Positions 9,795 to 55,503 of a stretch of DNA of 64,000 bases are shown here, in pieces. The notes beneath the pieces were generated by a model. It ran no database searches. It worked only from the letters and a program-made list of their open reading frames with translations, and was not told the DNA's origin. Made by a program: the position numbers and the translations under genes. Each line of letters begins with the position of its first letter. Position 1 is the first letter of the stretch. Origin of the DNA: Spinacia oleracea (Eukaryota > Streptophyta > Magnoliopsida > Caryophyllales > Amaranthaceae); contig NC_079488.1 of the NCBI RefSeq assembly GCF_020520425.1, positions 7,975,747-8,039,746 of the forward strand, read 5' to 3'.

Positions 9795-9809
9795 GGCTCG
9801 TGATACCAC
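9795..9809 (-). promoter_or_regulatory. Primer-binding site of copia copy A
   Basis: The minus strand reads GTGGTATCACGAGCC immediately after the LTR end CCTAACA. TGGTATCA matches the start of the usual plant initiator-methionine tRNA site (TGGTATCAGAGC). An extra C then breaks the match. All visible copies share this form. Confidence 0.7.
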
Positions 9810-11190
9810 TGTTAGGTTATGATACATATGACAATTCATAAATCATGCGGAAAAACCATAAAGCCAGGAAAACATATTATTTACACATAATCATTTAGCA
9901 TAGTTTAGATGCATACTCTTTGTTGCGTGCCCTCCCTAGCTGCGCCCGAACCGAACAAGAACAAGTCTTTAGGACTCCAAGTGTCGTCCCTCCGTAGATA
10001 GTCCACAGCACGTCCGGATCCGCCTTAAGATTGACCAACTAGAATCGCCCTTAAGGTTCTACTTATTTTCGGCTAAATGGGCAAGAGTTATGGCTGATTT
10101 TGTGCTTAAAAATCCTAGCTTTGAATACTTGAAAACTTATGTATAAACAATGACCCTAGGCCCTTATTTATAGAGGTATGGAAAGAGAATTGGAATCCTA
10201 TTAGGATACTAATTTATTTAATTAGAATCCTGCTAGGACTCTATTTAAATAAACTTTATCTAATAGGTTTAGGATTTAATCTTTTATTGAATCCCGATAG
10301 CTTTAGGATTCGCACACGAGCATCGCACGAGCACCGTACACCCGCGCAGGCCTTGCGGCCCACGCTGAGCGCACAGCGCTCGGCCCATGCTTTTGTCCGC
10401 GCGCGCCCATGGCTTCGGCTGGGCCTGGCTTGCGCTGGGCCTGGTCGAGGCTTTGGCGTGTGTTGGTGATGCGTGTGGCTTGTTGGGCGATGGCCTGGCT
10501 TCGTGCTGGGCCTTCGTCTAGCGAGCCTCGTCCGATGCTAATTCGTACGATACGCTTTCGATTAAATTCCCGATTCCGGAATTTATTTCCGATACGAACA
10601 ATATTTAATATTTCCGATTCCGGAAATTAATTTTCGTTTCGAACAAATATTTAATATTTCCGTTTCCGGAATTATTTTCCGATTCCGATAATATTTCCGT
10701 TTCTGACAATATTTCCGTTTCCGGCAATATTTCCGATTCCGGCAATATTTCCATTTCCGATAATATTTTCCGATACGTACCATGTTTCCGTTTCCGGCAA
10801 CATCTACGACTTGGATAATATTTATATTTCCGATACGATCCATATTTCCGTTTCCGGCAATATCATCGTTTCCGGAGTATTCATTTCTTGCCTGTGACGA
10901 TCTCAGCTCCCACTGAAACCAAGATCCGTCGATTCCGAATATCCATAGATGGAGTATTTAATGCCATTAAATACTTGATCCGTTTACGTACTATTTGTGT
11001 GACCCTACGGGTTCAGTCAAGAGTAAGCTGTGGATTAATATCATTAATTCCACTTGATCTGAAGCGGCCTCTAGCTAGGCATTCAGCTCACTTGATCTCA
11101 CTGAATTATTAACTTGTTAATTAATACTGAACCGCATTTATTAGACTTAACATTGAATGCATACTTGGACCAAGGGCATTATTTCCTTCA
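9810..11190 (-). repeat. Copia LTR (5' LTR of copy A)
   Basis: A 1381-bp near-copy of 691-2070, differing at about ten positions by eye, with the same CGGAAATATT-word array (about 10555-10880) and a TATA box near 10165. Outside it lies LINE sequence beginning CTTAG. Confidence 0.93.
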
Positions 11191-25688: not shown

Positions 25689-26114
25689 TGTTCCGGTGTT
25701 ATAAAGATGGAAACAATGGGCTTCGAATGAAGGCCCCTTTCGTATGTGTTGAAGATCTTGCTTGCTTGAATGAGTCGAGTCCGAATTCACCTGCACAAGA
25801 GCAAAGTCACTAGCCTCGGGGGTGTTTCCGAGGAAAGCCCCTCCGATGCCTAAGTAAGAATGATGCTCGGATTCTAGAGAGAAGTTCTCTAGAAGAGTAG
25901 TCTTAAGGCGATAAATTGGACGTCCCTTGAGGTGTGAGCCTTGGCGGCCTATTTATAGTGTTTGCATAATAAATGCCCATAGGTCATTTATTGCTATTGG
26001 GCCTTGGGCCTTGATGGATGGCTGACTAGCCATTGGTAGGTTTGATGCTGTTGTTTAGAGCCATTGGGCTTTGGACTTAGTGGCCCAATTGAGAATCAAT
26101 TGGGAGCCCAAACA
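25689..26114 (-). repeat. Gypsy 3' LTR
   Basis: TGTTCCGGTG...GCCCAAACA, 426 bp, matched by 47461-47886. It carries the CTATTTATAG box that, on the minus strand, is the element's TATA box. Confidence 0.93.
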
Positions 26115-26293
26115 ACATGCCCCCCAGACCCGGTCCATTTAGAATTAAATGGGTGGGTTTCCAATTGTCAGAAGTCCAAAAGTTCCCTCTCTTTTTTTGA
26201 AAAGGGATGATTTGCATTGATGACAAGTGTTGGGATTTGCATTGTGTCGTGGAGATCGTGGGTTGAAAAGAAGTTGATACGCTTCCCTTTTCT

Positions 26294-26300
26294 ATAAATA
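26294..26300 (+). promoter_or_regulatory. TATA box for the antisense gene of the gypsy element
   Basis: TATAAAT in the context TTCTATAAATACCGGGCGC, 255 bp upstream of the ATG at 26555, followed by a CT-rich leader. It lies outside the LTR, so the antisense gene appears to have its own promoter. A GT at 26472 after CGGAAAAAG could be the donor of a 5'-UTR intron. Confidence 0.55.
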
Positions 26301-26554
26301 CCGGGCGCTAAACTTCCTTCAAACTTTACTTTCTCTCTCTTTTAGACAAACTTCCTCTCTTTTTCCGGCGATCGCGGTTTTCGAGTTTCTTCAGATCTAC
26401 GAAATTCAGCCAGCTTTAGACTTCGGGAACTTGCGTCGTTCGTTTTATCGGCGAATTCCGCTTCGGAAAAAGGTAATTTGTTTCTGAATTCTCCTTACTT
26501 CTTCGTTCTTTCTTCTACTCCTCAATCTAAACCCTAGACCGAGAATTCGCGACC

Positions 26555-29500
26555 ATGGCAAAGAATAAGGGCAAAAGTAAGTTCGTCGTTGGCTCCTCTA
26601 GTGAGAGGGAGGATGTGCCTTCGGGAAAGGTACAGAAAACTTCGAGGGGTCGGCCTTCGGAGAGGCCGGTGGAGAAACGTTCGACTGGTTGGGACGCTTC
26701 CAAAGATGATGTTGTTGGCGGGTCTGGCGTGTCTGAACGCGCTACTTCTGGTAAGAAAGCTGGTTCTTCGGGTGTATGCCGTCCTTACCCTGAGTTTCTA
26801 GTTCATTGGACTGAAGCTGATCCGAAGGGCAAGTATGCCCCGATCTTGCATGAGACTACCAAGATCGATGGTCCGTTGGAGAAATCGGTCAATGGTGACT
26901 GGTTGGTGGAGGCGAAGCTGGGGAACTACCATCGGAGGGCCGAGGAGCTATACGGAATCCAGCACGCCTTGGGGTACTGGTGTGAGCTTCCTGATCAGGA
27001 GCGTCCTCGGGTGACTCATCCGCCGAGGGGGTTCATCTCTGTGTACACTCATCACTTGGAGAACGGTCTCCGTTTTCCCTTGGATCCATTCATTTCCGAG
27101 CTCCTGGTGTCGTACAACATCAGTTTGGCCCAACTTACACCCAAATCTATGAGGCACATCATCGGATTTAGATGGGTGTGCGATTTTGTTAACTTTCCCT
27201 GCTCTGTCGCCGTTTTTCGCGATCTCCACGATCTGTCTTTCAATCATGCTTCCAAGGGTGATGGGTATGGTTGGTGTACCATCATCAACAAGAAATCCCG
27301 AAGGAGAGGGGAGCCGAACTATATTACGGCATACCCTTACCTCAGTTCTGACCATAAGTGGAAGACGGAGTGGTTGCTTGTTCGCGTGCCGACGGATCCG
27401 AAGCATCCCAATTTTTATCGCCCTCCGAATTGGTTTGTGACTCCTGATCCTGATATGGGAGGCGTGGCTGCTCCGGATCGGAACCATCACCACTACGTGG
27501 ATCTCCTCCAGTGGTTTTTGGCTCGGGAGGACAACTACAAACTGCCGTCTAGCTGGCTCCCGAACCTCAACTACATCTTGCGGGAGGACATTCTTGCTGT
27601 CGCCGGTCTCAGCAGGATTTTTGACAGGGGTAGGTGTCTTTCGGCTGGGACCGTGTTTCAGTGAGTTTGTCCTCCTCCTTTTTCCCTCGTCTTACTGACT
27701 CGTTTTTGTGCTTTGTTTCTGCAGAGTACGGCTTTAGCTGCCTTGATCCTGTGATTTTGGGCATCTCTTTGGATCTGAAGACTATTCACGACTCGGCTCC
27801 TGATTACAAGTTCGGGAAAGAGAATCCTCGTAATCCTCGTTTGAAGGATTACGTGTTGTTGAAGGAAATAATGCCCTTGGTCCAAGTATGCATTCTATGA
27901 TAAGTCTAATAAATGCGGTTCAGTATTAATTAACAAGTTAATAATTCAGTGAGATCAAGTGAGCTGAATGCCTAGCTAGAGGCCGCTTCAGTTCAAGTGG
28001 AATTAATGATATTAATCCACAGCTTACTCTTGACTGAACCCGTAGGGTCACACAAATAGTACGTAAACGGATCAAGTATTTAATGGCATTAAATACTCCA
28101 TCTATGAATATTCGGAACCGACGGATCTTGGTTTCAGTGGGAGCTAAGATCGTCACAGGCAAGAAATGAATACTCCGGAAACGATGATATTGCCGGAAAC
28201 GGAAATATGGATCGTATCGGAAATATAAATATTATCCAAGTCGTAGATGTTGCCGGAAACGGAAACATGGTACGTATCGGAAAATATTATCGGAAATGGA
28301 AATATTGCCAGAATCGGAAATATTGCCGGAAACGGAAATATTGTCAGAATCGGAAATATTACCGGAATCGGAAAATAATTCCGGAAACGGAAATATTAAA
28401 TATTTGTTCGAAACGGAAATTAATTCCGGAATCGGAAATATTAAATATTGTTCGTATCGGAAATGAATTCCGGAATCGGAAAATTTAATCGGAAGCGCAT
28501 CGTACGAATAAGCATCGGACGAGGCCTGCCGGACGAGGCCCAGCACGAAGCCAGGCCATCGCCCAGCAAGCCAGGCGCGCCGCACAAACAGCCACGCCAG
28601 GCCCAGCGCAAGGCCAGGCCCAGCAGGCTGCGCGCAGCGCGCAGCGCGCACAGCGCGCACAGCGCGCACAGCACGCACAGCACGCGCAGCGCACAGCGCG
28701 CACAGCACGCGCAGCGCGCAGCGCGCGCGGGCGCTGAGTGGGCTGCTGCTCGCGCGCACGCATGGGGCCCATCGTGGCTGCCGTGCGTGTGTGTGCAAGT
28801 GTTTGTGTTCGTGCACGTTTCCTAAAACATGCAGAGTTCGGTTAATGATTAAATTCCTAATTCTATTTGATAAATTAATTAAATTAGAGTTCTTGTATGA
28901 TTCTAGGTTTAATTAATTTGTATCTGAATAGGATTTCGATTCCCTTTCCATACCGCTATAAATATGAGGCTAGGGCTCACAATTTATAACACAAGTTTCA
29001 AAGTATTCAAAGTGAGTTTTTGAGAGAAAAATGCAGTCACACATTTGCCTATAAAGTGCCGAAAATAATAGTACCTTAAGGGCGATTCTAGTTGGTCAAT
29101 CTTAAGGCGGATCCGGACGTGCTGTGGACTATCTACGGAGGGACGACACTTGGAGTCCTAAAGACTTGTTCTTGTTCGGTTCGGGCGCAGCTAGGGAAGG
29201 CACGCAACAAAGAGTATGCATCTAATCTATGCTAAATGATTATGTGTAAATAATATGTTTTCCTGGGTTTATGGTTTTTCCGCATGATTTATGAATTGTC
29301 ATATGTATCATAACCTAACAGTGGTATCACGAGCCCCTTATTATTTTCATAATCTAAATTGCATGAACATGGTTAAATATTACAAATTTGCAAGAATTAA
29401 AAGGGGTGATTAATTTTCGTAATTGTTAATTAATTGCAAATTGCGTTTATTTAATTATACGTACGCAGTTTTTCGGCAGTTTCTTCGTTACTCATCCGAA

Positions 29501-32500
29501 TTGAGTGATTTTTGTGTCAATTCCGCATGTAAAAGGAATTCTAAAATTTTGACAAAAATAATATTTTTCTGCCGAACCCAGAATTCTCAAATTCGAAGCC
29601 TAACTATGACTTTTCGAAGGTTTTAGTTTTTCGAATGCAAAATTTCGTAAATTTAAGATGTTAAATTAAATATTTGCGATTCTTGTTGATAAATCTTGAA
29701 TTTTTGATTGACCTACTGCATATGTTTAACAAGTTTGAATGCCTAGTCTTGTTAATTATGCAATCTAATTTGTAATTATGATTAATTTGTTGAAAATTAG
29801 AATAATTTAGAATTAATTTGATTTTCATAATTAATTGTAATTTAATTAGAAACCTATGATTAAAAACCACCATAAAAATTGTAAATTTATGATAAATTTT
29901 AAATTTTTATGACCTAGACTTGAATCCATAACAATCGGAAATCAATTGAATAATAAATTTTCGATTTTTTCGCCCTAAAATTATGAAATTAATATTATTT
30001 ATTAATTTGTCATTAATTTTAAATATAAATTTTAAATTTTTATGCGATTCGTTCATATAACTTGCACGCACGAAGCAATGGACGCTTCGTGTTACCCTTA
30101 AGGGGTGTTGTATAATGCGGGCATGCGACGACGAGCAAGGGAGCTCGTCGCCCGTGCGGCACGAATGCAATGAGCAAGGGCGTAGTGCACGAGCACAAGG
30201 CAGCAGCCCTGCCTTGTGTCGTGTGCCACGACCAATGGACGAATGGGCATGGGCGTAGGGCGAGCCAAGGCAGTCGCGTGTGGGCAGCAAGCGAGCTGCG
30301 CCACAACGCGCGCTGCCTCGCACAAGAGCGCGCAGCGAGCGCAAGCTCTCGTGCCACGAGCGCTGCGCCTAGCATTGCTCGCGCGCACAGCGAGCGATGT
30401 CGCCCGCCCAGCGAGCGATGTCGCGCGCCCAGCGAGCGATGGCTCGCGCGCCCAGCGAGCGATGTCGCGCGCCCAGCGAGCGATGGCTCGCGCGCCCAGC
30501 GAGCGATGTCGCGCGCGCACTGCGAGCGATAGCCCGCGTGCGATGAGCGCTGGCGCGCGCAGCGAGCACCAATGCGTGCGGAGGCTTGCGATAGGGATGC
30601 AGCAGCTATGCGACGAGCGCATGGGCTGCGCGCGCATGGCCAGCGATGGCTGTGTGCGTGCGGCCCATGGGCGTGCTACGCGTAGGGTGTTTGCGTTACG
30701 ATTAGATCGTTTTGAATGTTTAATTTGAAAATTTCAGTTCACGTAATTTTAATTAATTTTAAAATTAATAATTTAAATTATTTTCTTGGATTTTAATTTT
30801 GAATATTATAATTATAATAAATGTTATTTATTCTAATTATTTTACTAAAATTAAAATCATGAATTAATTTAAATGCGACTGAAATTAAATTAAACTTTTT
30901 GGATTCAATTATAAATTTATATGAGCTTTAAATTTTAATTAAATTTGTATGTTTCCGGTTAGACTAGAAATACATTTTTATGTTTAAAATTGGTAAAGCA
31001 TATGAATTTATTGGTTTAAGTGGGAGCGCTTTTTAGTCATAAACTCTTGATTAGGTCTACAAATCCTTAAGGTTAAAACAACTTGATTAGAATTAATAAG
31101 GACTGAATAATTGGTAGATTATTGGTGCCCTTGATTAATTGCTGCAAATGTTTACGTGATGCATAATGTGTTTTACTAACCAGCTATGTGGGCCATTCAT
31201 GATAATGAATGGGTGAATGGTATATATTGTATATGTACTGTTTTGCAGGTTATGAAGTGACTAGTATGGCCAAATAGGATAGAAAATATGGTCTGCGTAC
31301 CATTAATTTGAATGTAATTGGTCTAAAGTACCAAAGTTATTTTTCAATTCAAATATGGTCTGCGAACCATCAAATAGTTGTAATTAGTTATAGCTTATCC
31401 TATTTGAAGAAAATGGTGCCTCCCACGGAGATTTTCAAGACGGACTTTGAAGTCAAAGCTTCAAGATGAAGTCGGGCCATACTAGATCACAAATATCTTA
31501 TGCATGTTTTAAGTTATTTATTGTTTTAAATATGTCTTAAAATGCATGAGATCAAAAGCTTGATTATGTTGCATGATTAAGGATTTTAGTTCACTTAAAA
31601 TCTAACCAACATAGTAAGAGCCTTAAGTTCCAAACTTAAAAATTGAGTTAAAAGGTGCCATGCCAAAATATACACTTGCTTGGATATCCTTTACATCAAT
31701 CTAGTAATAGTTTTCGCTCAGCGAGGTGTTACTTATTGGTCCTAAAGGGGCAAGGTACACAAATAATTGTGAGTACATGTTAGTTTTGGTGAAACTCAAC
31801 GATATAAGTAAGGAGTCCTTTTATGTCGTGGCAAATTCGATAGGTTTACCTAATAAGTTCTTAGACGTACCTATCAACCAAGAATAGTTTCTAGACTATT
31901 GGCAAAAGGCTTTTGCTTACCTAAGATGTTCTAGGATTAAGTCGACAAACTGTGCTTAGTTCTTCAATGATTTTAGGATCTTGGAATCATTTTATTCACA
32001 CCTGCCGGAACACATAATTTGAATAAAATGCTTAATAAACATTGAATTATGCATGTATGCTAGAATTAAAGTTTATTAAGAGAAACTGTGAATGGTTATT
32101 TATTTGTTTATTCTTTTCAATTGTAGTTTTAATATGGCAAACAACAATCAAAACATCATCATGTGTTCTGAGCTTATGGTCAAGCTGAACCTGACAAATT
32201 TTCTTGAATGGGAAGCTAAGCTAGTTGAAATAGTCAAACTCAATGGGCTTGAGTATGTACTGTCACATCCCATGCCAAGCTACTATGCCAGAGACATGAC
32301 CCCTGAGAGATTTTACGCCTGGGATGCGGATCTCAAAAAGGTTATGAGTCTCATGCTGAACAATATCCCTGATGATTGGGCTAGAAGGTTTGTAGCCTAT
32401 GAACCTTTTACGCTCATCAAAAATCTGAGGGATATCTGTCGTGGAAGTACGGAGGACAGGGACCTGAACGTCCATGAGTTGATTGAATCAATGTCTGGTC

Positions 32501-35500
32501 TAAAGGTTAGTTCTCCCAACAGGTGTTATAGGATGGAGGTCCAAGAAACACATGTTCAGCTCCTTCGCACTAAACAAAGGGTAGGCGTCCCACTGAGGTT
32601 CCATGTGGATCTTATGTGTTCATATTTTGATCGCCTAAGTCTACTAGGAACACCAATAAGCGAAAGGATGGCAGTCTCTGTCTTGCTCAATTCACTACAC
32701 AGTGGGTTTGGTCGCTTCAAGAAACTATACCTAAGTGAACCAAGAGAAGAAACAGTTGCAGAATTTATTCACCTTGTCAGAAAGGCTGAAATAGTACTGG
32801 ACTGTGAAGCCAAAGATTTACTCAAGGCTAGAAAGAGACCATTCAAGAAAGGTGGAAAGTCCAAGGGCAATGCTAAATCAAAGCAGGACAAGTCCACATC
32901 AAGCTGTCTTTATTGTGATGGAATAGGCCATTACAAAAGAGAATGTCCAAAGCTAAAGGAAGATCAGAAGAACGGAACAGTCGTTCCATCTTCAGGTATT
33001 TTCGTTATAGACTGTATACTTGCTAATTCAACTTCTTGGGTATTAGATACAGGTTGTGGCTCACACTTATGTTCCAATCCACAGGGACTAAGAAGAAGTA
33101 GAAAGTTAAGCAAGGGTGAAGTCGACCTACGAGTGGGAAATGGAGCACGGATTGCTGCATTAGCTGTAGGAACTTACTATTTGTCATTGCCCTCCGGGCT
33201 AGTTTTGGAACTGGAAGAATGTTTCCATGTTCCAAGTCTTACTAAAAACATCATTTCAGTTTCTTGCTTAGATGCTAAGGGATTTTCCTTTATAATAAAA
33301 GACAATAGTTGTTCGTTTTATTTTAAAGAGATGTTTTATGGATCTGCTAGATTAGTCAATGGACTTTATTTATTAGATCACGACAAACAAGTATATAACA
33401 TAAATACCAAAAAGGCCAAAAAGGATGATTCAGATCTCACCTATCTGTGGCATTGTCGATTAGGCCATATAAACTTGAAACGCTTAGAAAGACTTCAAAG
33501 AGAAGGAATTCTAGAACCATTTGACTTAGAGGATTATGGTAAATGCGAATCATGTTTACTTGGCAAAATGACAAAGCAACCTTTCTCTAAAGTTGGAGAA
33601 AGAGCAAATGAACTATTGGGTTTAATCCATACAGATGTATGTGGACCAATGAGTACAAATGCTAGAGGTGGTTTCAGCTACTTTATCACTTTCACTGATG
33701 ACTTCAGTAGGTATGGTTATGTCTACCTAATGAAGCATAAGTCTGAATCCTTTGACAAATTCAAGGAATTTCAGAGTGAAGTAGAGAATCAATTAGGCAA
33801 GAAGATTAAGGCACTGCGGTCTGATAGAGGCGGTAAATATCTGAGCTATGAATTTGATGACCATCTGAAAGAATGTGGAATTCTATCAGAATTGACTCCT
33901 CCTGGAACACCACAATGGAACGGTGTGTCGGAACGGAGGAACAGAACCTTGCTAGACATGGTCAGGTCAATGATGGGTCAGGCCGAACTTCCATTAGAAT
34001 TTTGGGGACATGCACTAAATACAGCTGCACTCACTATAAATAGAGCTCCGTCTAAAGCTGTCGAAAAGACTCCATACGAATTATGGTTTGGAAAGCCTCC
34101 AAATGTGTCTTTTCTTAAGATTTGGGGATGTGAAGTATACGTCAAACGATTAATTTCAGACAAACTTCATCCAAAATCTGACAAATGTATCCTTGTGGGC
34201 TATCCAAAGGAAACAAAGGGGTATTACTTCTACAATACATCTGAGAACAAAGTGTTTGTTGCTCGAGATGGTGTCTTTTTGGAGAAGGATCACATTTCCA
34301 AAATGACAAGTGGGAGAAAAGTAGACCTCGAAGAAATTCGAGTCAAACAACAAACTCTAGAGAATGCTCAAGATGACATTCAGGATGAAACTCAGAAGAT
34401 CTTTAGAAGAATCTGGTGAGAATCATGGTCAATCTAGAAATGTTACCCCGCGTAGATCGCAAAGATATAGATCTCAACCGGAAAGATACTTAGGTATTTT
34501 GACGAACGAGAGCTATGACGTTCTATTACTTGAAAGTGATGAACCTGCGACTTACAAGCAAGCTATTACGAGCCCTAGCTCCAAGCAGTGGCAAGAAGCC
34601 ATGCAATCTGAATTAGACTCCATGTCTGAAAACCAAGTATGGGATTTGGTCGATTTGCCAGATGGCTACCAAGCCATTGGAAGCAAATGGGTTTTCAAAC
34701 TGAAAAAGGACAAGGATGGGAAACTTGAAGTTTTCAAAGCTAGATTGGTCGCAAAAGGTTACAGGCAAGTCCACGGTGTGGATTACGATGAAACCTTTTC
34801 ACCAGTTGCAATGCTAAAGTCTATTCGGATAATGTTAGCAATCGCTGCATATTACGATTACGAAATATGGCAGATGGATGTCAAAACTGCTTTCTTAAAC
34901 GGCGTTTTAACAGAAACTGTGTTTATGACACAGCCTGAAGGTTTTGAGGATCCAAAGAATGCTAAAAAGGTATGCAAGCTAAAGAAGTCAATCTACGGAT
35001 TGAAGCAGGCATCCAGGAGCTGGAATATACGTTTTGATGAAGCAGTCAGTGACTTTGGTTTCATCAAGAACGCGGACGAATCTTGTGTATACAAGAAGGT
35101 CAGTGGGAGCAAAATTGCTTTCCTAGTATTATATGTCGACGACATATTGCTTATCGGAAATGACATTCCTATGTTGAACTCTGTCAAGATTTGGCTTGGG
35201 AAATGTTTTTCGATGAAGGATCTAGGAGAAGCACAGTACATATTGGGCATCAAGATTTACAGAGATAGATCTAAAAAGATGATTGGACTTAGTCAAAGCA
35301 CTTATATCAATAAGGTGCTTGATAGGTTCAAGATGGCGGACTCCAAGCGAGGCTACCTACCCATGTCTCATGGAATGACTCTAAGCAAGACTCAGTGCCC
35401 AAAAACACTTGATGAGCGTAGACGAATGAATGGGATTCCATATGCATCATTGATTGGTTCAATAATGTATGCTATGATATGTACACGCCCGGATGTTGCG

Positions 35501-38500
35501 TACGCACTCAGTGCTACGAGCAGATACCAGTCAGACCCAGGAGAGGCGCATTGGACTGCTGCCAAGAATATTCTGAAGTACCTGAAAAGGCACAAAGATG
35601 ACTTCCTGGTCTATGGTGGAGATGATGAATTAATTGTTAAAGGCTATACGGACGCAAGTTTCCAAACCGACAAAGATGATTTTAGATCACAGTCTGGGTT
35701 TGTCTTCTGCCTCAACGGAGGAGCAGTAAGCTGGAAAAGTGCTAAGCAAAGCACCATTGCGGATTCTACAACTGAAGCGGAGTACATTGCTGCACATGAA
35801 GCAGCAAAGGAAGCTATATGGCTAAGGAAGTTCATAGGAGAACTTGGTGTAGTCCCCTCCATTAAAGGACCAATAGCCCTGTATTGTGATAATAACGGAG
35901 CTATTGCACAGGCAAAAGAGCCTAGACACCACCAGAGAGTCAAGCATGTACTTCGTAGATTTCACCTTCTACGAGAGTTCGTTGAAAGAAAAGAAGTCGA
36001 GATAAGCAAAATTGGAACTGATGACAACATATCAGATCCATTAACTAAACCTCTGCCGCAGGCGAAGCACAACTCGCACACTGCAGCTATGGGAATCAAG
36101 CATATTGGAGAATGGCTTTGATGTCTCTGTTTAATGTTTTAAAGTTTTAGAGTTTAAATCTTTGTAAAACATTATTGGTTAATCATTCACAATAAATGAG
36201 ATGAATTCATTTTTCCATTTAATTTATGGTTTATTAAATGATGAGTCCCTTCAATTTGACGATATATTCAAGATAGACTGTCAGGACCAGTCCTGTGACT
36301 AAGAAATGTCTATCAAGTGAACTTGAATGTCAAAGGTTGAAAATGGTCCCTAGTCGGAGTTTTCTATAAAATTGGACGCATAGAAAACGTTAGACGATTA
36401 GAATGCAAGATGACTAGTAGTTCTGTTTCTTGAACTATGTGGACATGGCAATGTCATAATCATTTGCATAGATACTTACTTTGGGAAGACTAGTATCGGA
36501 CAAGACCTATGAAACTTTACTGTAAGAGATGAAAGTCTGTCATAAGTAAATTTCATTAAATTATTAGACACTAAATCCTCAATACCTGAGTGATTTGAGA
36601 TTACTTGTTTGAGAACTGGTTGCTTTGACGTTGACCAACCGTCGCACCCTAAAAGGAGGCTATAAAGGCAACGCTCAGGTAATCACCTATCAAACGAAGT
36701 CTAATCTCAAGATCGCAAGATTGGGATTGTCCTCCCATAAATCGGAATGAGATGCTTAAAAGTTGTACAAGGCCACTCGGAGAGCTAGAAACTGTGAAAT
36801 GCATGTCCGTGCTCGGATGAATCATAGGCTATGATTATCTGTTTATTTGATCAGTTGAACTCTGAAACCGAGGAACACCTCTGGACGTAATAAGGATGAC
36901 AACTCTTACCTTATGTTCAAGAGCAAGCATCGAGCGACAAAGGAATTAGGAAATGCACACTTGTCCCTAAGGACAAGTGGGAGACTGAAGGAAATAATGC
37001 CCTTGGTCCAAGTATGCATTCTATGATAAGTCTAATAAATGCGGTTCAGTATTAATTAACAAGTTAATAATTCAGTGAGATCAAGTGAGCTGAATGCCTA
37101 GCTAGAGGCCGCTTCAGTTCAAGTGGAATTAATGATATTAATCCACAGCTTACTCTTGACTGAACCCGTAGGGTCACACAAATAGTACGTAAACGGATCA
37201 AGTATTTAATGGCATTAAATACTCCATCTATGAATATTCGGAACCGACGGATCTTGGTTTCAGTGGGAGCTAAGATCGTCACAGGCAAGAAATGAATACT
37301 CCGGAAACGATGATATTGCCGGAAACGGAAATATGGATCGTATCGGAAATATAAATATTATCCAAGTCGTAGATGTTGCCGGAAACGGAAACATGGTACG
37401 TATCGGAAAATATTATCGGAAATGGAAATATTGCCAGAATCGGAAATATTGCCGGAAACGGAAATATTGTCAGAATCGGAAATATTACCGGAATCGGAAA
37501 ATAATTCCGGAAACGGAAATATTAAATATTTGTTCGAAACGGAAATTAATTCCGGAATCGGAAATATTAAATATTGTTCGTATCGGAAATGAATTCCGGA
37601 ATCGGAAAATTTAATCGGAAGCGCATCGTACGAATAAGCATCGGACGAGGCCTGCCGGACGAGGCCCAGCACGAAGCCAGGCCATCGCCCAGCAAGCCAG
37701 GCGCGCCGCACAAACAGCCACGCCAGGCCCAGCGCAAGGCCAGGCCCAGCAGGCTGCGCGCAGCGCGCAGCGCGCACAGCGCGCACAGCACGCGCAGCGC
37801 ACAGCGCGCACAGCACGCGCAGCGCACAGCGCGCACAGCACGCGCAGCGCGCAGCGCGCGCGGGCGCTGAGTGGGCTGCTGCTCGCGCGCACGCATGGGG
37901 CCCATCGTGGCTGCCGTGCGTGTGTGTGCAAGTGTTTGTGTTCGTGCACGTTTCCTAAAACATGCAGAGTTCGGTTAATGATTAAATTCCTAATTCTATT
38001 TGATAAATTAATTAAATTAGAGTTCTTGTATGATTCTAGGTTTAATTAATTTGTATCTGAATAGGATTTCGATTCCCTTTCCATACCGCTATAAATATGA
38101 GGCTAGGGCTCACAATTTATAACACAAGTTTCAAAGTATTCAAAGTGAGTTTTTGAGAGAAAAATTCAGTCACACATTTGCCTATAAAGTGCCGAAAATA
38201 ATAGTACCTTAAGGGCGATTCTAGTTGGTCAATCTTAAGGCGGATCCGGACGTGCTGTGGACTATCTACGGAGGGACGACACTTGGAGTCCTAAAGACTT
38301 GTTCTTGTTCGGTTCGGGCGCAGCTAGGGAAGGCACGCAACAAAGAGTATGCATCTAATCTATGCTAAATGATTATGTGTAAATAATATGTTTTCCTGGG
38401 TTTATGGTTTTTCCGCATGATTTATGAATTGTCATATGTATCATAACCTAACAGTTGTCTCCTTCGGGTGTTGCTCGGATATCCGAAGTTCGAGCTGATC

Positions 38501-40566
38501 CGTGGGATTCTGCCTCCTCTCCCGAAGCTGTTCCAGTGAAGGTTGTGCTTCCTGATTTGAGGACAACTTCAGATCCGGTGAGTGTTTCTGTAGGCTTGGT
38601 TTTTGTTTGTCTTTTCTTTCTTTTTGGTTGGCCGTCGGCTAACGTCTTGGTCCTGGACCATCTTTCTAGGGTCCTGGGACTGACGCTGTGCCGCGTGCCG
38701 TTCCTTCGGTTTCATCTCCGGCTCGGATAGATATCTCTTTATCTAGGAACCGGGTACTTCACCCTTTTTCTTTATTTCCTCCTTTGTCTTCCTCTAAATT
38801 TATTGACCCTTGGTCTCCCTTTTTAGGATCAAAGGAAAAGGAAGGGTAGCACTCTTCTGAGGTCTTCCGCGCATCCGAAGAAGGCGAAGGCTTCTCAGTC
38901 CTCGGAGAAGGTATTTGCTCTGACTTGGAGTTTTCTTGTAGTCCGTCTTTCCCTTTTTCGAAGCTAATCTTTGAACGCTTGTTTTGTAGGAAACGGTTTC
39001 GGAAGACATGCCTCCTCCCAAGAATCTCCTTCACTTCATGCCCTTGCCAGGGCAGAAGTTAAAGAGTGTGGTGGTTGCGGAACCGCCGCCCGTGGATCAA
39101 CCGTTGGCTGAGGAAGATACCATCCCCTCTCCGCTGAAGCCGTCTACTGCTTTAGGGATCGAGATCCAGGATATCACCAAGGTGATGGAGGCGATTGAAG
39201 CCGACCTTGTTCCTGGCTCGGATGCCCCTATCGTGGCCGAGAAGAAGAAGGAATCTGCTGACGTTTCTCTCGAAAGAGAGAGAAGTCCAGATAAGGAGAT
39301 GGTGGACTTCACTGGCCCTAATGTTGAGGTTCCCGAGGCTGAGAAGGAAGTTCCCTCTGCTGAGGAGGAGCAGCCCGAACAGGGTCTGACGAGGAAGAGG
39401 CGCCACTCGACCTTGGTTTCTACTTCGACCTCGGCCCTGGATAGATTGATCCATGCTGACCCTTGCTCGGATGTTCCGCTAAAACGGATCCCCGAGGAAG
39501 TAAGGGAGGCGATGGCTCGCTATGCTAGGGTTCCGGTTTTGGGGGAGAATCCCATGGCTCACGTGGGATCTTTGGTGGGTCCCGAAGCTGCTCGGGAGAA
39601 TCTTCTTCGGGCCAACCCGCAGTGGAGGGTTCCTGGAGCTGAAGAGAGGAACCCGGCTATGATGGCCCAGTACTATCTGAATGAGGTAAGTGTTGGATTT
39701 TCTCTTTGAGTTGTGTTTTTGTTTTATGTTTTTCCTACTTTTGCTCATCTTTCCTTCGCTCCCAGGCTGTTTTCTGGTCCTCGTTCGCTTCCGAGTGTAG
39801 CTCGGTTGAGGAGAGACAACTGAGGAGATATCAGGAGGCTTATGCTCGTGATATTCCAATCTTGGACCAGAAGGCTGGGCAGCTCTTCTCCGAGCTTGTG
39901 GAGGTCAAGCAACTGTACCTTCAGTACAGTCGTGAGGCTAGAGCTTCAGCTGAGCAGATCGGGGCCGAAGTTGGGAAGCTCACCTTCCAAGTCGAAGAGG
40001 ATGCTGAAAAAATAGCTTCCTCCGACAAGGAGAGGAAAGATATGGCCGCCAAGTTTGCGAGCGAACTTGAAGAAAAAGACAGACTTCTCAAGGAGATGAC
40101 GTCTAAATTTGAGGCGGCCGATAAGCAGAGCCAGGATGCGGAGGCGAGGCTACATCAGTTTGTCAAGCATCAGGAGATAATTCAGAACCAAGCTGACAAG
40201 GTGCCTGTTCTCCAGCTGAAGATCCGAGAGAAGGATGCGGCCATTCGGAAGTTGGAGCAAGAGAGAGTTGACCTCTACACTGCTGATCAGTGTAGAGAGC
40301 AGTATTGGAATGGCATCCTGGGTGCTCGGCGCATGTTTGCGAAGCATATGCCTCATTTCCCTTGGAATGAGAAAGTTCCTCTCTGGATGCGGGCCCAGGA
40401 TCACTTGGTGGAGTGCCAGGCTGATCGAGACGAAGCTGAAGCTGAACGCCAAGCTGCTCTTGCAGAGGCTCGGGCCCAGAAGGCGAATTCCGAAGGTGAC
40501 ACTACTGCTGGGGGTTCTTCGAAGGATGCTCCCCTAGGGGCTGCTCCTGAGACTCCCAAGAGTTAG
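26555..40566 (+). CDS. Antisense extra gene of the Tat element (gypsy-type transposon domain plus coiled coil), split by copia copy B
   Basis: Start ATG 26555 in good context (GACCATGGC). Exons that keep one frame: 26555-27629, 27725-27859 continued at 38459-38577, 38670-38753, 38827-38910, 38990-39685, 39766-40566, totalling 997 codons plus stop, all introns GT/AG. Exons 1-2 hold the 'putative gypsy type transposon' domain (PF04195-like; FPLDPFISELLVSYNISLAQL and GFRWVCDFVNFP). Exons 3-5 are basic, then acidic and Pro-rich. Exon 6 is a long coiled coil rich in Glu, Lys and Ala. Such antisense extra genes are known in Tat-lineage elements, but their function is unknown. The copia insertion at 27860 separates exon 2, so this copy cannot be expressed whole unless the copia is spliced out. 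I see no other break. Confidence 0.8.
27860..29320 (+). repeat. Copia 5' LTR, copy B
   Basis: 1461 bp, TGAAGG...CCTAACA. Contains the CGGAAATATT-word array (about 28180-28500), a GCGCAGCGCGCACA-type repeat (about 28630-28730) and a TATA box (CTATAAATAT, 28956-28965). Confidence 0.96.
28956..28965 (+). promoter_or_regulatory. TATA box of copia copy B
   Basis: CTATAAATAT about 355 bp before the LTR end. It corresponds to the minus-strand box at 1046-1053 in copy A. Likely promoter of the genomic RNA. Confidence 0.65.
29321..29335 (+). promoter_or_regulatory. Primer-binding site of copia copy B
   Basis: GTGGTATCACGAGCC directly after the LTR. TGGTATCA fits the initiator-methionine tRNA site, but the following CGAGC carries an extra C relative to the usual GAGC. 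Confidence 0.7.
29336..32133 (+). other. Leader of copia copy B with GC-rich tandem repeats
   Basis: 2.8 kb without a recognisable protein. A GC-rich block at 30240-30690 contains units of CAGCGAGCGATG-type words, spaced 21-23 bp (starts near 30388, 30409, 30430, 30453, 30474, 30497). The rest is AT-rich and matches 6920-9794 in reverse complement. Confidence 0.75.
32134..36121 (+). pseudogene. Copia gag-pol polyprotein, copy B, one-base frameshift
   Basis: From ATG 32134 (MANNNQN) the frame covers Gag with CCHC knuckle (CLYCDGIGHYKREC, residue ~257), protease LDTGCG (~303), integrase zinc region (~440-480) and DDE motifs HTDVCGP (~499), RSDRGGKY (~563), NGVSERRN (~596), to a stop at 34419. 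A single extra A near 34395-34397, relative to copy A, shifts the frame. Reverse transcriptase (YVDDILL, near 35134) and RNase H (YTDAS near 35645, TEAEY) continue in the next frame to the normal stop at 36121 (ending HIGEWL). The shift sits in the linker between integrase and RT. With both LTRs nearly identical, the mutation is probably recent. Confidence 0.93.
36122..36985 (+). other. 3' untranslated region and purine tract of copia copy B
   Basis: Non-coding stretch between the gag-pol stop and the 3' LTR. It ends in GGACAAGTGGGAGAC, the plus-strand priming tract. It matches 2071-3022 of copy A. Confidence 0.75.
36986..38453 (+). repeat. Copia 3' LTR, copy B
   Basis: 1468 bp. Same as 27860-29320 except for a different number and order of GCGCACAGC-type units at about 37755-37860 and one base near 38165. 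Confidence 0.96.
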
Positions 40567-40899: not shown

Positions 40900-41300
40900 T
40901 TTCGAGCTCTTCTTTCTGTAGACTTGCTAAGAAACCCTTTGATTTTGCGAGTTCTTCAAATCCGTAGATCTGTTAAGAGACTCTTTAATTTTGCGAGTTC
41001 TTCAAATCCGTAGATCTGTTAAGAGACTCTTTAATTTTGCGAGTTCTTCAAATCCGTAGATCTGCTAAGAGACTCTTTAATTTTCCGAGTTCTTCAAATC
41101 CGTAGATCTGCTAAGAGACTCTTTAATTTTGCGAGTTCTTCAAATCCGTAGATCTGCTCAGAGACTCTTTAATTTTGCGAGTTCTTCAAATCCGTAGATC
41201 TGCTAAGAGACTCTTTAATTTTGCGAGTTCTTCAAATCCGTAGATCTGCTAAGAGACTCTTTAATTTCCAGACTCTTCAAATCCGTCGATCTGCTCAGAG
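40900..41300. repeat. 46-bp tandem array at the convergent 3' ends of the gypsy element
   Basis: About eight copies of a 46-bp unit (GCGAGTTCTTCAAATCCGTA then GATCTGCTAAGAGACTCT and TTAATTTT). Units start at 40947, 40993, 41039, 41085, 41131, 41177, 41223 and 41269, near-identical in the middle and diverged at both ends. The array lies between the antisense gene stop (40566) and the pol stop (41688). Tandem repeats here are known in Tat/Ogre elements and can seed satellite DNA. Confidence 0.92.
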
Positions 41301-41687: not shown

Positions 41688-44600
41688 TCATACAAAATAT
41701 TTCTTGAGAACATCGGTATTCCAATGGTTCTTCAAGATTGTTCCATCTAACTGTTTCAGCATAAACGTGCCTGGCCTTTTTTCGGAATGGATGATGTATG
41801 GTCCTTCCCAAGTGGCTGAGAGTTTGCCATGGATCCGTCCTTTCTGAACCGAGGCGGCGTTTCTGAGTACTAGATCACCGACTTTTAGGGGTCTAGCGTT
41901 GACTCTTCGATTGTAATGCTTGTTGACCCTCTGCAAATAAGCTGCGTTGAGTGTCCTCGCATCGTTCCGAGCTTCGTCTAGTAGGTCGAGAGCTTCGGAC
42001 AGAAGTTGGTTGTTGCTTTCTCCTTGGAGCCCATCATACCTGTTGTATGCCTGGATCCTCAAGCTTTCTGTTCCGATTTCCACAGGGATGACAGCTTCGG
42101 ATCCATATACAAGGTGGAACGGTGTTTGCCCGGTAGCTTCTTTCTCGGTGGTCCGAAGGGACCATAGCGTTCCGGGTAGCTCTTCTAACCACTTGTTTTT
42201 GTCATCCTCGACTCTTTTCTTGAGTGCGTTGAGGATGATTTTGTTAGCAGCTTCGGCTTGCCCGTTGCTTTGTGGGTGGCAAACTGCCGAGTAAGCTAGG
42301 TGTATGCCGAACTATTTGCACCATTTTTGTAGCGGGGTGTTGTCGAACTGTTTCCCGTGGTCGAAAACCATCAGTCTTGGTATGCCGAACCTTGTGATGA
42401 TGTTCTGCCATATGAACTTGCGGACCTGAGGTTCGGTGATGGAGGAGACAGCTTCAGCTTCGATCCATTTGCTAAAATAGTCGACTCCTACAATCAACCA
42501 CTTCCTCTGGTTCGTAGCTGAGGGGAAGGGACCAATGATGTCTAACCCCCACTGTGCGAATGGTAAAGGATACAGTGTTGATTGTAAGGTTTGAGCTGGT
42601 TGATGGATAGCTGGTGCGAACTTTTGGCATTTCTCGCACTTCCTTGCCATATGCTTTGCCTCGGAAACCATAGTGGGCCACCAGTATCCGGCCCGAAGGG
42701 CTTTGTGTGCCAATGTCCTGCCTCCGATGTGGTTTCCGCATATCCCGAGGTGGATTTCTCTTAGGATGTAGTCAGCGTCTGTTGGACCCACACATTTTAG
42801 CAGCGGAGCGGAGAATGATTTCCTCATGAGCTCTCCTTCGGCGCTGATGATGAACCACTTGTTGAATCTTTTCAGTTTTCTCGCCTGTAGCTTATCTTCG
42901 GGAAGTTCTCCCCTTTCTTTGTATGCAATTACTGCGTCCATCCAGCTGGGTTCGGTACGTAAACTGCATACTGTGGTGGGTAACAAGTCAATGCTTCTCT
43001 CTTGGTGAACTTCCACGTGGACAGACCTGTTTAGGTCGATGAGTGTTGAGCTTGCGAGTTTTGACAGTGCGTCTGCTTGCGTGTTTTGTCCTCGGGGGAT
43101 GAGAATGACTTCAAAGGATCTTAACTTTGACGTTAAGGATTTAATTTTTGCTAAGTAAGCTGTCATGCTGGGCCACTTGGCCTCATACTCCCCTCGGATC
43201 TGGTTGGCTACAAGCTGGGAATCAGTTTTGAGGCAAACATGCTCGGCTTCCAGGGATAAGCAAAGCTCTATCCCTGCGATTGCGGCCTCATATTCGGCTT
43301 CGTTGTTAGTTGCTTTGAATCCGAACTTCAATGCATACTCTATGCTTTTCCCCGTTGGGGGGATTAGTACAACTCCTGCTCCTGAGCCGTTTACTGTGGA
43401 AGATCCGTCAGTGAAGACCTCCCAAGTGCTTTTCGTATCATCCAGCATTTCCTGGTATGAGCACTCGGCCAAGAAGTCTGCCAACGCCTGTGCTTTGATG
43501 GCGGTCCTCGGCTGATATTTGATGCCGAACTCTGATAGTTCGAAGGCCCAGGCAGCCAATCTTCCTGACCTCTCTATTTTGTCGAGTACTTTCTCGAGCG
43601 GTTGGTCAGTTAGTACTGTGATCTGGTGGGAGTCGAAGTATGGCCTCAGTTTTCGTGCAGCTACCACCACTTCATATGCAACTTTCTCGATGAGCGGGTA
43701 CCGAGTTTCGGCCCCTGTGAGTGTTCGGCTGGTGAAGTAGATGGGCTGTTGCTTCTTCTCTTCTTCCCGAAGAAGCACTGCGCTGACGGTTCCAGGGCTG
43801 ACTGCGACATATAGGTACAGGGTTTCCCCCTCCTTTGGTCTGGCCAGTGTCGGCAGTTGAGCTAGGTGGGCTCTGAGTTGCTGAAGAGCCTCTTTTTGCT
43901 CCTGCTCCCATATCAGTTCGGGATCCACCTTCCTCGGGACCCCATTTTTCTTGACTGGTTCTGCTTCTCCCCCGGGGAGGCTCTTTGGTTTTAGTGCTTT
44001 GAAGAAGGGGGCTCCCTTGTCCGAGGCTTTTGATATGAACCTTGTTAGTGCTGCTAACCTGCCGGTTAGCCTCTGCACGTCTCTCTTGGTCCTCGGCTCG
44101 GGTAAATCCAACGCCGCTTGGACTTTATCCGGGTTCGCATCGATTCCTCTTTCGCTCACCATGAATCCGAGGAACTTCCCTGACTTCACCCCGAAGACAC
44201 ATTTTTTTGAGTTCAACTTCATGCTGTATTTCCTCAGATTTCCGAAGGTCTCTGCCAAGTCTCTGACATGGTCTTCCTCCTTGATGCTTTTTACGATGGA
44301 GTCATCCACATAGACCTCGACATTCCTCCCTTTCTGGTCGGCGAAGACGTGATCAACTAGCCTCTGGTAGGTTGCGCCGGCATTTTTCAAGCCGAAAGGC
44401 ATCATTTTGTAGTTGAACACTCCTGCGCTCGTGATGAATGCTGTCTTTGCCCTGTCGTCGGGGTGCATGAACACTTGATGGTAGCCTGAAAAGGCATCCA
44501 TGAAGCTGAGCAGTGCATGGCCGCTGGTGGAGTCAACCAATTGATCTATCCTTGGCAGGGGATAGCAGTCTTTGGGGCAGGCTCGGTTCAGATCTGTGAA

Positions 44601-47460: not shown

Positions 47461-47886
47461 TGTTCCGGTGTTGTAAAGATGGAAACAATTGGCTTCGAAT
47501 GAAGGCCCCTTTCGTATGTGTTGAAGATCTTACTTGCTTGAATGAGTCGAGTCCGAATTCACCTGCACAAGAGCAAAGTCACTAGCCTCGGGGGTGTTTC
47601 CGAGGAAAGCCCCTCCGATGCCTAAGTAAGAATGATGCTCGGATTCTAGAGAGAAGTTCTCTAGAAGAGTAGTCTTAAGGCGATAAATTGGACGTCCCTT
47701 GAGGTGTGAGCCTTGGCGGCCTATTTATAGTGTTTGCATAATAAATGTCCATAGGTCATTTATTGCTATTGGGCCTTGGGCCTTGATGGATGGCTGACTA
47801 GCCATTGGTAGGTTTGATGCTGTTGTTTAGAGCCATTGGGCTTTGGACTTAGTGGCCCAATTGAGAATCAATTGGGAGCCCATACA
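47461..47886 (-). repeat. Gypsy 5' LTR
   Basis: 426 bp, followed by ATTAG at 47887. CTATTTATAG at 47721-47730 reads as a TATA box on the minus strand, about 155 bp into the LTR. Confidence 0.93.
47721..47730 (-). promoter_or_regulatory. TATA box in gypsy 5' LTR
   Basis: Minus strand CTATAAATAG in a GC-richer context (GGCCGCC follows). Likely promoter for the gag-pol transcript. Confidence 0.6.
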
Positions 47887-49997: not shown

Positions 49998-52429
49998 GGC
50001 AAATTTGCCAAAAACAACCTTTTATAACTATTTTTTTGCAAAAAACAACCTTTTATAATTTTTTTTGCAAAAACAGACCTAAAAGTAAAAATAATTTGCA
50101 AAAGGCAGTCTTTTCCCATTTTCAGGCGTTGACTCTCAATTCTCCGGTTTGACTTGGCATGTGATGGTCACGGAGGCCGGTTTTTCATATTTCCACCATT
50201 TTCCCTCCATTTTTCCCACCATATAAAAACCCACTCCCTTAAAACCTAAAAAAAAAATGGAAAGACAAAAGGAAGGTGAAGGAACGCCATTAATGAAGCT
50301 CTGCAAACAACAAACCTCCATTGAATGTTGTAAGTCATTCAATTCCAAATGTCACTTTCTTCAACTACTTAAAATTAAATCATGTTTAATTGTCATTTTT
50401 GGGTAAAAATTCAGAACTTTTTGCACTCATTTTATTCCGTTTTTGGCTCTGAATTTTCTTGCTTTGTTGTACTTCAATGGCACCCAAAAAAGGAAAGAGG
50501 AAGGTATTAGGTTATGACAAATATAAAACTTATATTTCATGCGGAAAAACCATAAAGCCTACAGGAATCCAAATTAATTGCCACATAACAATTAGCATAA
50601 TTTAGGATGCATACATTCGAAGCGTGCCTTCCCTACCTGCTCCCAAACCGAACAAGAACAAGTTTAGGACTCCAAGTGTAGTCCCTCCGTAGATAGTCCA
50701 CAGCACGTTCGGATCCGCCTTAGATTTAATTAACTAGAATTCAACCTAAGGTTTTAAGTTATTCGAATATAATTTGTGGCAAATTATTAACTTTAGTTTT
50801 AACCTTAAAACTATATGAATACTTGAATTGATGTATTATAAATTGTGAATGCCATCACCTATTTATAGGGTAGGATCATCGGAACTAGAAACCTACTAGG
50901 ATTCAATTAATCTAATCTTATTAGAATTAGATACTAATTAAATCTATTAAGTTATGTTTAATTCAACAACTAACTCTAGTAGTTTTAGGAAATTAATCTT
51001 TAATTGAACTAATCCTAATCGCTTAAGTATTCGATGCATGCACGAACTCAACGCACACACACTCACAACCCACGAGGGGCGCTGGGCGCGCGCGCGGAGT
51101 GCTCGGCCCAGCAGCGCTGCAGCCCACGCTTGGGCGTGCCAGCCTGCTGGCCTCGTTGGGTCCGACCTTGCGCTTTGCTTGGCTGGGCCTTGCGGTGCTT
51201 GCGGGCTGCTTGCTGCCATGCTGCGCGCGGGCTTTGCTAGGCGCAGGCCTGGCTTCGTGCTGGGCCTTGCGTCTAGCAAGCTCGTCCGATGTTCATTTCG
51301 TACGACGCGCTTCCGATTAATTTTCCGATTCCGGAATTCATTTCCGATTCGAACAATATTTAATATTTCCGATTCCGGAATTAATTTTTGTTTCGAACAA
51401 ATATTTAATGTTTCCGATTCCGGAATGATTTCCCGATTCCGACAATATTTCCGATTCCGACAATATTTCCGTTTCCGGCAATATTTCCATTTCCGATAAT
51501 ATTTTCCGATACGTACCATGTTTCCGTTTCCGGCAACATCTTCGACTTGGATAATATTTATATTTCCGATACGATCCATATTTCCGTTTCCGGCAATATC
51601 ATCGTTTCCGGAGTATTCATAATTTGCCTTTTGACGATTTCAGCTCCCACTGGAACCGAGATCCGTCGATTCCGAATATCCATAAATGGAGTATTTAATT
51701 CACTTAAATACTTGATCCGTTCACGTACTATTTGTGTGATCCTACGGGTTCAGTCAAGAGTAAGCTGCGGATTAATATTATTAATTCCACTTGAACTGAA
51801 GCGGCCTCTAGCTAGGCATACAGTTCACTTGATCTCACTGGATTTATTAACTTGCATAATTAATTAATACCGAACCGCATTTATTAGACTTATCATTGAA
51901 TGCATACTTGGACCCAGGACATTATTTCCTTCAGAAGGCATTAACATGGTCCTGCAATTCCATCAACAAAACAGAATCAATTCACAAAATTGGGGGAAAA
52001 ACCCTAAGTTTCGTACATTAAAATTAGGTAAAACTAATGAACAAAACTTACTAAAAATTAGTGGTTGAGTGTCAAAAATCACTTAGTATAGCAGCATGAA
52101 GAATGCGGATGAAGCAAGAAGAGAGGAAAAAAATTGGTGGAGGATGAGGAATGAGGATAAAGAACAGAGAGAAAGCTGTAATTTTGGGGTTTTATTTTGG
52201 CTCCAAAATGGGTTTAAGTGATAAAAAGGGAGGGAAAGTGGGTGCCATAACTCCATAAGTAAAACCCGGCCAAGTCAAATCGGAGATTTGAGGGTCAACG
52301 CTTGAAAATGGGAAAAGGCTGCCTTTTGCAAATTATTTTTACTTTTAGGTCTGCTTTTGCAAAAAAAATTATAAAAGGTTGTTTTTTGCAAAAAAATGGT
52401 TATAAAAGGTTGTTTTTGGCAAATTTGCC
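49998..52429. mobile_element. Mutator-like non-autonomous element with 9-bp duplication
   Basis: Inverted termini of about 165 bp starting GGCAAATTTGCCAAAAACAA at each end (inner border near TTTGACTTGGC). Perfect 9-bp duplication TAAAACCTT (49989-49997, 52430-52438). Without the solo LTR it is 998 bp. 9-bp duplications and long inverted repeats are diagnostic of Mutator-like elements. No transposase. A plus-strand ATG at 50478 (MAPKKGKRK) opens a short frame cut by the solo LTR. Confidence 0.9.
50505..51933 (-). repeat. Solo LTR of the copia family
   Basis: 1429 bp with perfect GAAGG duplication (50500-50504, 51934-51938) and no internal region, the product of LTR-LTR recombination. First bases are TA instead of TG (TATTAGG), otherwise the family ends are kept. 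It contains the CGGAAATATT-word array (about 51310-51620) and a TATTTATAG box at 50860. It is more diverged than the other LTRs here. Confidence 0.93.
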
Positions 52430-54888: not shown

Positions 54889-55245
54889 GTCATTTGCGTC
54901 GGTCGTTTAAGCCCATTTACGTCGCACATTGGTGCGACGCAACTGGCAGCGACGCAAATGAAAAAAGTCATTTGCGTCGCACATTTGGGTGGCGCAAATA
55001 AGAGTCATTTGCGTCGCACTTTAGCTAATATGCGACGCAAATGACTTTTTTTTTTAACATATTAAAAAGTCATTTGCGTCGCAGTTTAGCTAAACTGCGA
55101 CGCAAATGACTTTTCAATATGTTAAAAAAAAGTCATTTGCGTCGCAAATTAGCTAAAGTGCGACGCAAATGACCTTTCATCATGTTAAAAAAAAAAGTCA
55201 TTTGCGCCGCAGTTTTAGCTAATCTGCGACGCAAATGACTTTTGA
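54889..55245. repeat. Subterminal hairpin array of the CACTA element
   Basis: GTCATTTGCGTCGCA and its complement TGCGACGCAAATGAC alternate to make four near-perfect hairpins at about 55004-55045, 55064-55112, 55124-55175 and 55191-55243. Loops resemble TTTAGCTAAA, and the units are separated by T- or A-rich spacers with TGTTAA. Less regular copies precede them from 54889. Repeated subterminal motifs are transposase-binding sites in CACTA elements. Confidence 0.85.
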
Positions 55246-55503
55246 ATATTCTAAAAAAATTGAGCTGCTGATTTTATTTAATCCACAAATTAATTAAATA
55301 AAACAAGCAGCTTTCAGTACTAGTATATTCAGAGCATAAAAATAAATGTAAACTAGGTGAAATATCGGCAATGTTTCCTTTGTAATTTTGACCCTCCCCA
55401 ATACCGGGAATGTTGTAATACAAAATGTGAAAGTCTTAGTTTTATTTCCTTTAGCTCACACCAACAATATACAAATTAACACTCAATTTCAACAATAAGT
55501 CCA

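Follow-up and report, generated by a model that had tools for sequence, protein, structure and literature searches.

Are the open reading frames (ORFs) that lie antisense to gag-pol in certain plant retrotransposons independent units, or are they the exons of one spliced gene? The question is raised by a 64,000-nucleotide stretch of the Spinacia oleracea genome (contig NC_079488.1, positions 7,975,747 to 8,039,746; hereafter the window), which contains an element of the Retand lineage of Ty3/gypsy long terminal repeat (LTR) retrotransposons and, on the plus strand of the region that separates its 3' LTR from pol, a candidate gene running opposite to gag-pol. Such elements were already known in the late 1990s to carry antisense ORFs, the function of which is unsettled (references in PMC7264820; published sources are cited here for the parts of them consulted). 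Judged from the DNA, the best reading of the known antisense ORFs is that they form the exons of a single gene that is spliced and under selection. The explanation as a whole, namely a multi-exon spliced antisense gene whose product would act as a nuclear dimer regulating the element, is given a probability of about 0.6, and that the gene itself is a real antisense coding unit is regarded as highly probable.

A candidate spliced gene opposite gag-pol

The putative promoter comprises a TATA box, TATAAATA, placed outside the LTR; a CT-rich leader comes next, and then an ATG in good context (ACCATGG) at 26555. The initial annotation had pointed to all three features, and all are present, although the start that it gave to the gene-bearing interval (26294) falls one base inside the box. 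It had also proposed six exons whose GT/AG junctions keep a single frame of 997 codons once a copia-type insertion is disregarded; coordinates, junctions and intron phases bear this out (Table 1), the six coding exons totalling 2994 nt by coordinates, equivalent to 997 codons plus the stop. Its exon set omitted a further GT..AG pair in the leader, which is probably an intron in the 5' untranslated region (UTR). At the first coding junction, the donor GTAGGT at 27630 fits the frame and agrees with the donor position in diverged relatives; a second candidate, GTGAGT at 27661, was set aside, since its use would bring the frame to a stop within five codons of entering exon 2. The T content of the introns is 44-54%.

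Conservation of this arrangement was assessed across copies of the element. A DNA search of the genome with exon 1 gave 722 candidate places, of which 40, the window's own among them, were scored; 29 of the 39 other copies were analysed, comprising 20 five-kb pieces and nine shorter loci that mostly end before exon 6, which lowers the counts there. Splice-site scoring skipped instances in which a flanking exon was not found. For introns 1-5 together, GT..AG is intact at 122 of 126 scorable instances. With introns diverging from the window by about 3%, a rough sum predicts changes in about 15 of the 126 four-base sets, whereas four were observed, one of them through an insertion. The last seven bases of TATAAATA, ATAAATA, are present in 29/29 copies and the ATG in 28/29. 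Among the 20 five-kb copies, both of the exon-2 parts that the copia insertion separates in the window were located in 18, and in all 18 they are contiguous.

Insertions and deletions (indels) were counted copy by copy in blastn alignments to the window. Coding exons carry 0.12 indels/kb (9 events in 75,439 aligned bases) against 6.45/kb in introns, a rate lower by about 50-fold, and the value for exons 2-6, which lay outside the search query, is 0.14/kb. Elsewhere in the 29 copies, indels amount to 5.63/kb in the LTR, 8.36/kb in the promoter stretch and 2.13/kb in the 3' stretch, and the leader is indel-poor (0.66/kb). Intron lengths vary by at most 14 nt from the commonest length, except for a larger intron-5 insertion in one copy. 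A separate genome search with exon 5 scored 40 of 599 candidates, again including the window's own; 39 of the 40 span 696 bases and one spans 695.

The leader also distinguishes a subset of copies: in L038, L041-L044, L046, L047 and L049 it differs from the window by about 10% and exon 1 by only about 3%, setting these eight apart from the other 12 of L031-L050. Neutral evolution of the leader or recombination could be responsible.

A six-frame check of exons 1, 5 and 6 was made on gap-free rows drawn from the 20 longer copies and the window. The frame assigned to the gene is free of stops in 14/18 rows for exon 1, 17/18 for exon 5 and 10/17 for exon 6, and the other five frames are open in no row of any of the three.

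Selection on the reading frame and its depth in time

Constraint on the protein was estimated as omega (dN/dS) from all-pairs Nei-Gojobori comparisons of the 20 copies and the window. The overall value is 0.218, with 0.178 for exon 1, 0.338 for exon 2, 0.290 for exons 3 and 4 combined, 0.262 for exon 5 and 0.219 for exon 6. Pol served as a yardstick: 12 pol pieces were fetched, three of which had no match and one of which spans another part of pol, and the pieces from nine copies plus the window gave an omega of 0.125; the antisense gene in the 12 copies of this comparison plus the window gives 0.219.

Variants in the same 21 rows were divided into private ones, confined to one row and largely arisen after insertion, and shared ones, found in at least two rows and arisen in the replicating lineage. 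Shared variants comprise 42 nonsynonymous (N), 91 synonymous (S) and no stop changes; private variants comprise 188 N, 143 S and 16 stops (Fisher P 1.2e-6 for private versus shared N/S). Under neutrality, the noncoding mutation spectrum would give an N/S ratio of 2.41, and shared variants stand at 0.19 of this value. Codon-level comparison demonstrates that purifying selection has maintained the reading frame along the replicating lineage. The initial annotation had proposed a spliced gene under selection, transcribed against gag-pol, and had named a dN/dS close to 1, together with many broken frames in other family members, as an outcome that would tell against it; that comparison returned a low omega, few indels in the coding exons and conserved splice sites, in keeping with its proposal.

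More distant relatives give the gene depth in time. Of 2698 candidate places in a genome search with the PF04195 profile, 150 were scored, every one of them above the cut-off, and five relatives (L051-L055) were taken from these matches. In exon 1 they share 26-31% identity with the window over 207-231 aligned positions, and they fall into two families, L051-L052 and L053-L055. The position and phase of intron 1 recur in 5/5: a few residues past a homologous motif, which reads VAGL in the window and AVGL in the relatives, comes a GT donor in phase 1, and the T-rich stretch after it ends in AG; in-frame continuation into the next exon was checked for L053-L055. Exon 1 of the pair L053 and L055 has a dS of 0.859 and a dN of 0.084 (omega 0.098; 343 gap-free codons), and exon 2 of L053-L055 has an omega of 0.210 over 53 codons. 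For L051-L052, omega in exon 1 is 0.252 from the GVVIS word onward and 0.360 over the whole.

Additional GT..AG stretches occur in L053 and L054, with an intron 2 of 69 and 64 nt, respectively, and an intron 3 of 80 nt in both. By eye, an exon containing the basic words KKRP and KPKRP is followed in them by a coiled-coil-like exon, the order being that of the window. Pol lies downstream of the gene on the opposite strand in L052, L053 and L054, so the gene is antisense there too; the pieces of L051 and L055 gave no pol match. In L053 and L054 (about 3200-4701), what lies downstream of the gene on the opposite strand is the AP part of pol, which matches the pol frame of the window at residues 162-363 and 199-363; between this part and the gene these pieces contain no reverse transcriptase (RT) or integrase match. 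The two apparently represent a family that lacks an RT of its own yet retains the antisense gene.

Possible role of the product

The initial annotation had noted that antisense frames of Tat-lineage elements often carry a gypsy-type transposon domain, and exon 1 indeed matches Transposase_28 (PF04195) with an E of 8.1e-11 and 42.4 bits against a curated cut-off of 26.2. In the profile search, which it had suggested for exon 6 too, that exon gave a weak match to PF09094 below the cut-off (E 0.032), which was discounted as chance. Residues 20-165 of exon 6 show a 3.5-residue hydrophobic periodicity equalled by 0/5000 shuffles. The basic stretches of exons 4 and 5 hardly vary among copies, and the one in exon 4 (QRKRKG..HPKKAK) is presumably comparable to a nuclear localisation signal.

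A mechanism can be proposed on this basis. RNA polymerase II would start at the internal TATA box and produce an antisense pre-mRNA, from which the host spliceosome would excise the five coding-region introns and probably the one in the 5' UTR. The resulting mRNA would encode a protein of about 1000 residues with the Transposase_28 (TRP28) domain, stretches resembling nuclear localisation signals and a C-terminal coiled coil. This protein may enter the nucleus, dimerise through the coiled coil and bind DNA or RNA of the element so as to regulate transcription, RNA export or integration in the manner of retroviral antisense and accessory regulators. A nuclear DNA- or RNA-binding dimer appears likeliest because of the Transposase_28 domain, the basic stretches, the coiled-coil periodicity and the analogy with gene23 of the maize element Grande; granted the gene, a regulatory role is reasonably probable. 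The initial annotation had found the introns hard to square with reverse transcription, a difficulty that falls away: the packaged genomic RNA is the complementary strand, in which the introns of the antisense gene do not count as introns, so they persist through retrotransposition as ordinary sequence does.

Several observations weigh against this explanation. All pieces of the gene are open in just 3/17 copies represented by every piece under a strict test of length and stops, and exon 6 contains a premature stop in 7/17 gap-free rows. We read these stops as decay after insertion, because all 16 stop variants are private in the 20 copies; when the set is enlarged to the 29 copies and the window, a single stop is found in two to three rows. 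Private variants likewise fall under the neutral N/S, at 0.55 of it. The young pair L053 and L054 has an omega of 0.647, contrary to uniform constraint, which we take to reflect mostly post-insertion changes. TATAAA is missing from the opening 500 bases of the pieces from all five relatives, so the promoter box may not be common to different families. A search of solved-structure sequences with exon 1 returned nothing similar (best E 0.36), and a single-sequence AlphaFold2 model of part of exon 1 was discarded at a mean pLDDT of 32.6. Moreover, the nuclear regulatory role draws on motifs and analogy, and transcription and splicing are read from the sequence.

The indel and codon evidence bears on the suspicion that exon conservation is merely apparent, the copies being young and chosen by their similarity in exon 1. 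The 29 copies do come from the 40 best exon-1 matches (96-99% identical); yet exons 2-6, absent from the query, have 0.14 indels/kb where the introns of these copies have 6.45, 39 of the 40 scored matches in the independent exon-5 search span 696 bases, and constraint persists between L053 and L055 at a dS of 0.86 (omega 0.098), which leaves this account scarcely credible. Nor does the same evidence suit an antisense transcript working chiefly as RNA, whether as a source of double-stranded or small interfering RNA or through interference with gag-pol, with the open frames as a by-product. Such roles have been proposed for antisense transcripts (PMC7264820), but they predict no codon-position asymmetry, and the excess of third-position changes among shared variants, the omega of 0.22 and indels that are rare in exons and frequent in introns make this reading very improbable.

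A different alternative accepts the gene and its splicing and makes the product a structural or replication helper, acting in the particle, the pre-integration complex or integration targeting, and not a regulator of transcription or export. It would account for the long coiled coil as a scaffold, and the gene's persistence in L053 and L054, whose pieces lack an RT or integrase match, may mean that it serves elements borrowing pol. The near-invariance of the basic residues in exons 4 and 5 and the nuclear location of the Grande counterpart (PMC7264820) speak against such a role, although both are still compatible with a nuclear pre-integration complex; we consider it less likely than the nuclear regulator.

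If the antisense ORFs are exons of one gene, catalogues built with ORF finders split the protein into fragments, and the whole protein becomes open to profiles, structure prediction and experiments. The element would also provide a clear case of introns that are stable inside a retroelement, sited on the non-packaged strand, and of a selected accessory gene apparently retained by elements without their own polymerase. In a broader form, towards which we lean only slightly, the Retand antisense ORFs across flowering plants (TRP28, Smc-like coiled-coil and others) would all belong, as exons, to a single ancient spliced gene whose intron positions are shared, and Retand would be a lineage whose conserved multi-exon antisense regulator persists even where RT and integrase have been lost.

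The host element and its known counterparts

The Ty3/gypsy element is flanked at either end by the target site duplication (TSD) ATTAG, and its LTRs are 98.8% identical over 427 aligned bases. Gag and pol, the latter with RT, RNase H and integrase, stand in gypsy order, as is typical structurally of Retand and the Tat group. The pol frame of this copy stops (42311-42312, minus) inside the integrase core match; in the adjoining open frame, 41688-42311, all Pfam matches are below their cut-offs. With the pol end set at 41688 and the copia insert excluded, the region between pol and the 3' LTR measures about 4,970 bp by coordinates, and the internal region without that insert about 10,744.

Table 1. 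Features of the Retand-type element and its candidate antisense gene (window coordinates; copies are the 29 analysed)
Feature	Position	Strand	Remarks
Retand-type Ty3/gypsy element	25689-47886	minus	LTR ends and TSD judged by eye from the flanks
LTR	25689-26117		
LTR	47461-47886		
gag ORF, 441 amino acids	46093-47418	minus	Retrotrans_gag PF03732, E 3.1e-17
pol ORF, 1295 amino acids	42312-46199	minus	RT, RNase H and integrase core by Pfam matches
TATAAATA box	26293-26300	plus	175 bp outside LTR 25689-26117
Probable 5'-UTR intron, 65 nt	26473-26537	plus	GT..CCCTAG; GT and CCCTAG in 29/29 copies
Coding exon 1	26555-27629	plus	Basic N-terminus and Transposase_28 (PF04195); ends in phase 1
Intron 1, phase 1	27630-27724	plus	GT..AG in 25/27 scorable copies
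Coding exon 2, part before copia insertion	27725-27859	plus	
Copia-type LTR element in exon 2	27860-38453		TSD GTTGT
Coding exon 2, part after copia insertion	38459-38577	plus	
Intron 2, phase 0	38578-38669	plus	GT..AG in 26/26 scorable copies
Coding exon 3	38670-38753	plus	Present in 27/29 copies
Intron 3, phase 0	38754-38826	plus	GT..AG in 27/27 scorable copies
Coding exon 4	38827-38910	plus	Basic stretch QRKRKG..HPKKAK
Intron 4, phase 0	38911-38989	plus	GT..AG in 26/27 scorable copies
Coding exon 5	38990-39685	plus	Second basic stretch RKRRH
Intron 5, phase 0	39686-39765	plus	GT..AG in 18/19 scorable copies
Coding exon 6	39766-40566	plus	Coiled-coil-like; includes the stop codon
46-bp tandem array, 8.3 copies	40918-41300		Between the 3' ends of pol and the antisense gene

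Other repeats also occur in the window. One copia-type family is represented by copies or pieces at 1-11190, 27860-38453, 50507-51934 and 63410-64000; the copy at 1-11190 is oriented opposite to the one within the antisense gene, and its left end may lie beyond the window. A second gypsy pol, with RT and RNase H and about 51% identical to the first, occupies 60301-63351 on the plus strand, with a copia LTR from 63410. A short tandem array at 54996-55259 has units holding CATTTGCGTCGCA-like words and their reverse complement.

The closest published counterpart is the Retand cluster 'Spinacia oleracea 1' of Vicient 2025 (PMC11963269), described from 54 copies with an LTR of 425, an internal region of 10,719 and a pol-3'LTR region of 4,850, together with one tandem array and an antisense TRP28 ORF. 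The window element resembles it in its LTRs (429/426), its internal length, its single 46-bp array and its antisense TRP28 between pol and the 3' LTR, and very probably belongs to this cluster; its assignment to the Retand lineage (Tat group) is based on structure and on this match. In that survey, 63 clusters were analysed and 104 antisense ORFs were obtained with ORF Finder, those of at least 600 bp being kept. An antisense TRP28 and a long pol-3'LTR region (2,933-6,566 bp) were reported in 97% of clusters, a range that includes the region in the window, and Transposase_28/TRP28 was predicted to bind DNA. The antisense frames are treated there as unspliced ORFs; the word 'intron' has 0 occurrences in the main text, and splice structure and selection are absent from the parts covered. 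A survey of this type would presumably list exons 1, 5 and 6 as separate ORFs, because each lies within an open frame of more than 600 bp. The literature searched contains no description of a multi-exon antisense TRP28 gene, and an earlier one is possible (Gomez-Orte 2013; the Steinbauerova survey).

Two antisense genes of plant elements invite comparison, both by description. Gene23 of Grande in maize (Gomez-Orte et al. 2013, via PMC7264820) likewise lies antisense between pol and the 3' LTR; its own promoter and nuclear product are observations made on Grande, and unlike the window gene it is described, in the parts consulted, without exon structure. ORF4 of Retand in Silene latifolia (Kejnovsky 2006, via PMC7264820), which is reported to be weakly and ubiquitously expressed, shares the antisense orientation and the Transposase_28 domain, but is also described there without exons. 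A search for antisense and spliced transcripts was called for by Vicient and Casacuberta 2020 (PMC7264820).

Spliced antisense genes are established in retroviruses, where HBZ of HTLV-1 and APH-2 of HTLV-2 regulate transcription (PMC3185765). The window gene, known from its sequence, can be likened to these as a predicted source of spliced antisense retroelement mRNA. However, HBZ and APH-2 start in the 3' LTR, whereas the window gene has its TATA box outside the LTR and six coding exons, and the proteins are unrelated as far as tested, the Pfam scan of exons 1, 5 and 6 having found no bZIP; it resembles HBZ in its workings only and is not classed as a member of that group. Introns are also a feature of the plant LTR retrotransposons Ogre and EVADE (PMC12786077), in which alternative splicing yields subgenomic forms of the element's own RNA, whereas the introns of the window element lie in the gene opposite to gag-pol.

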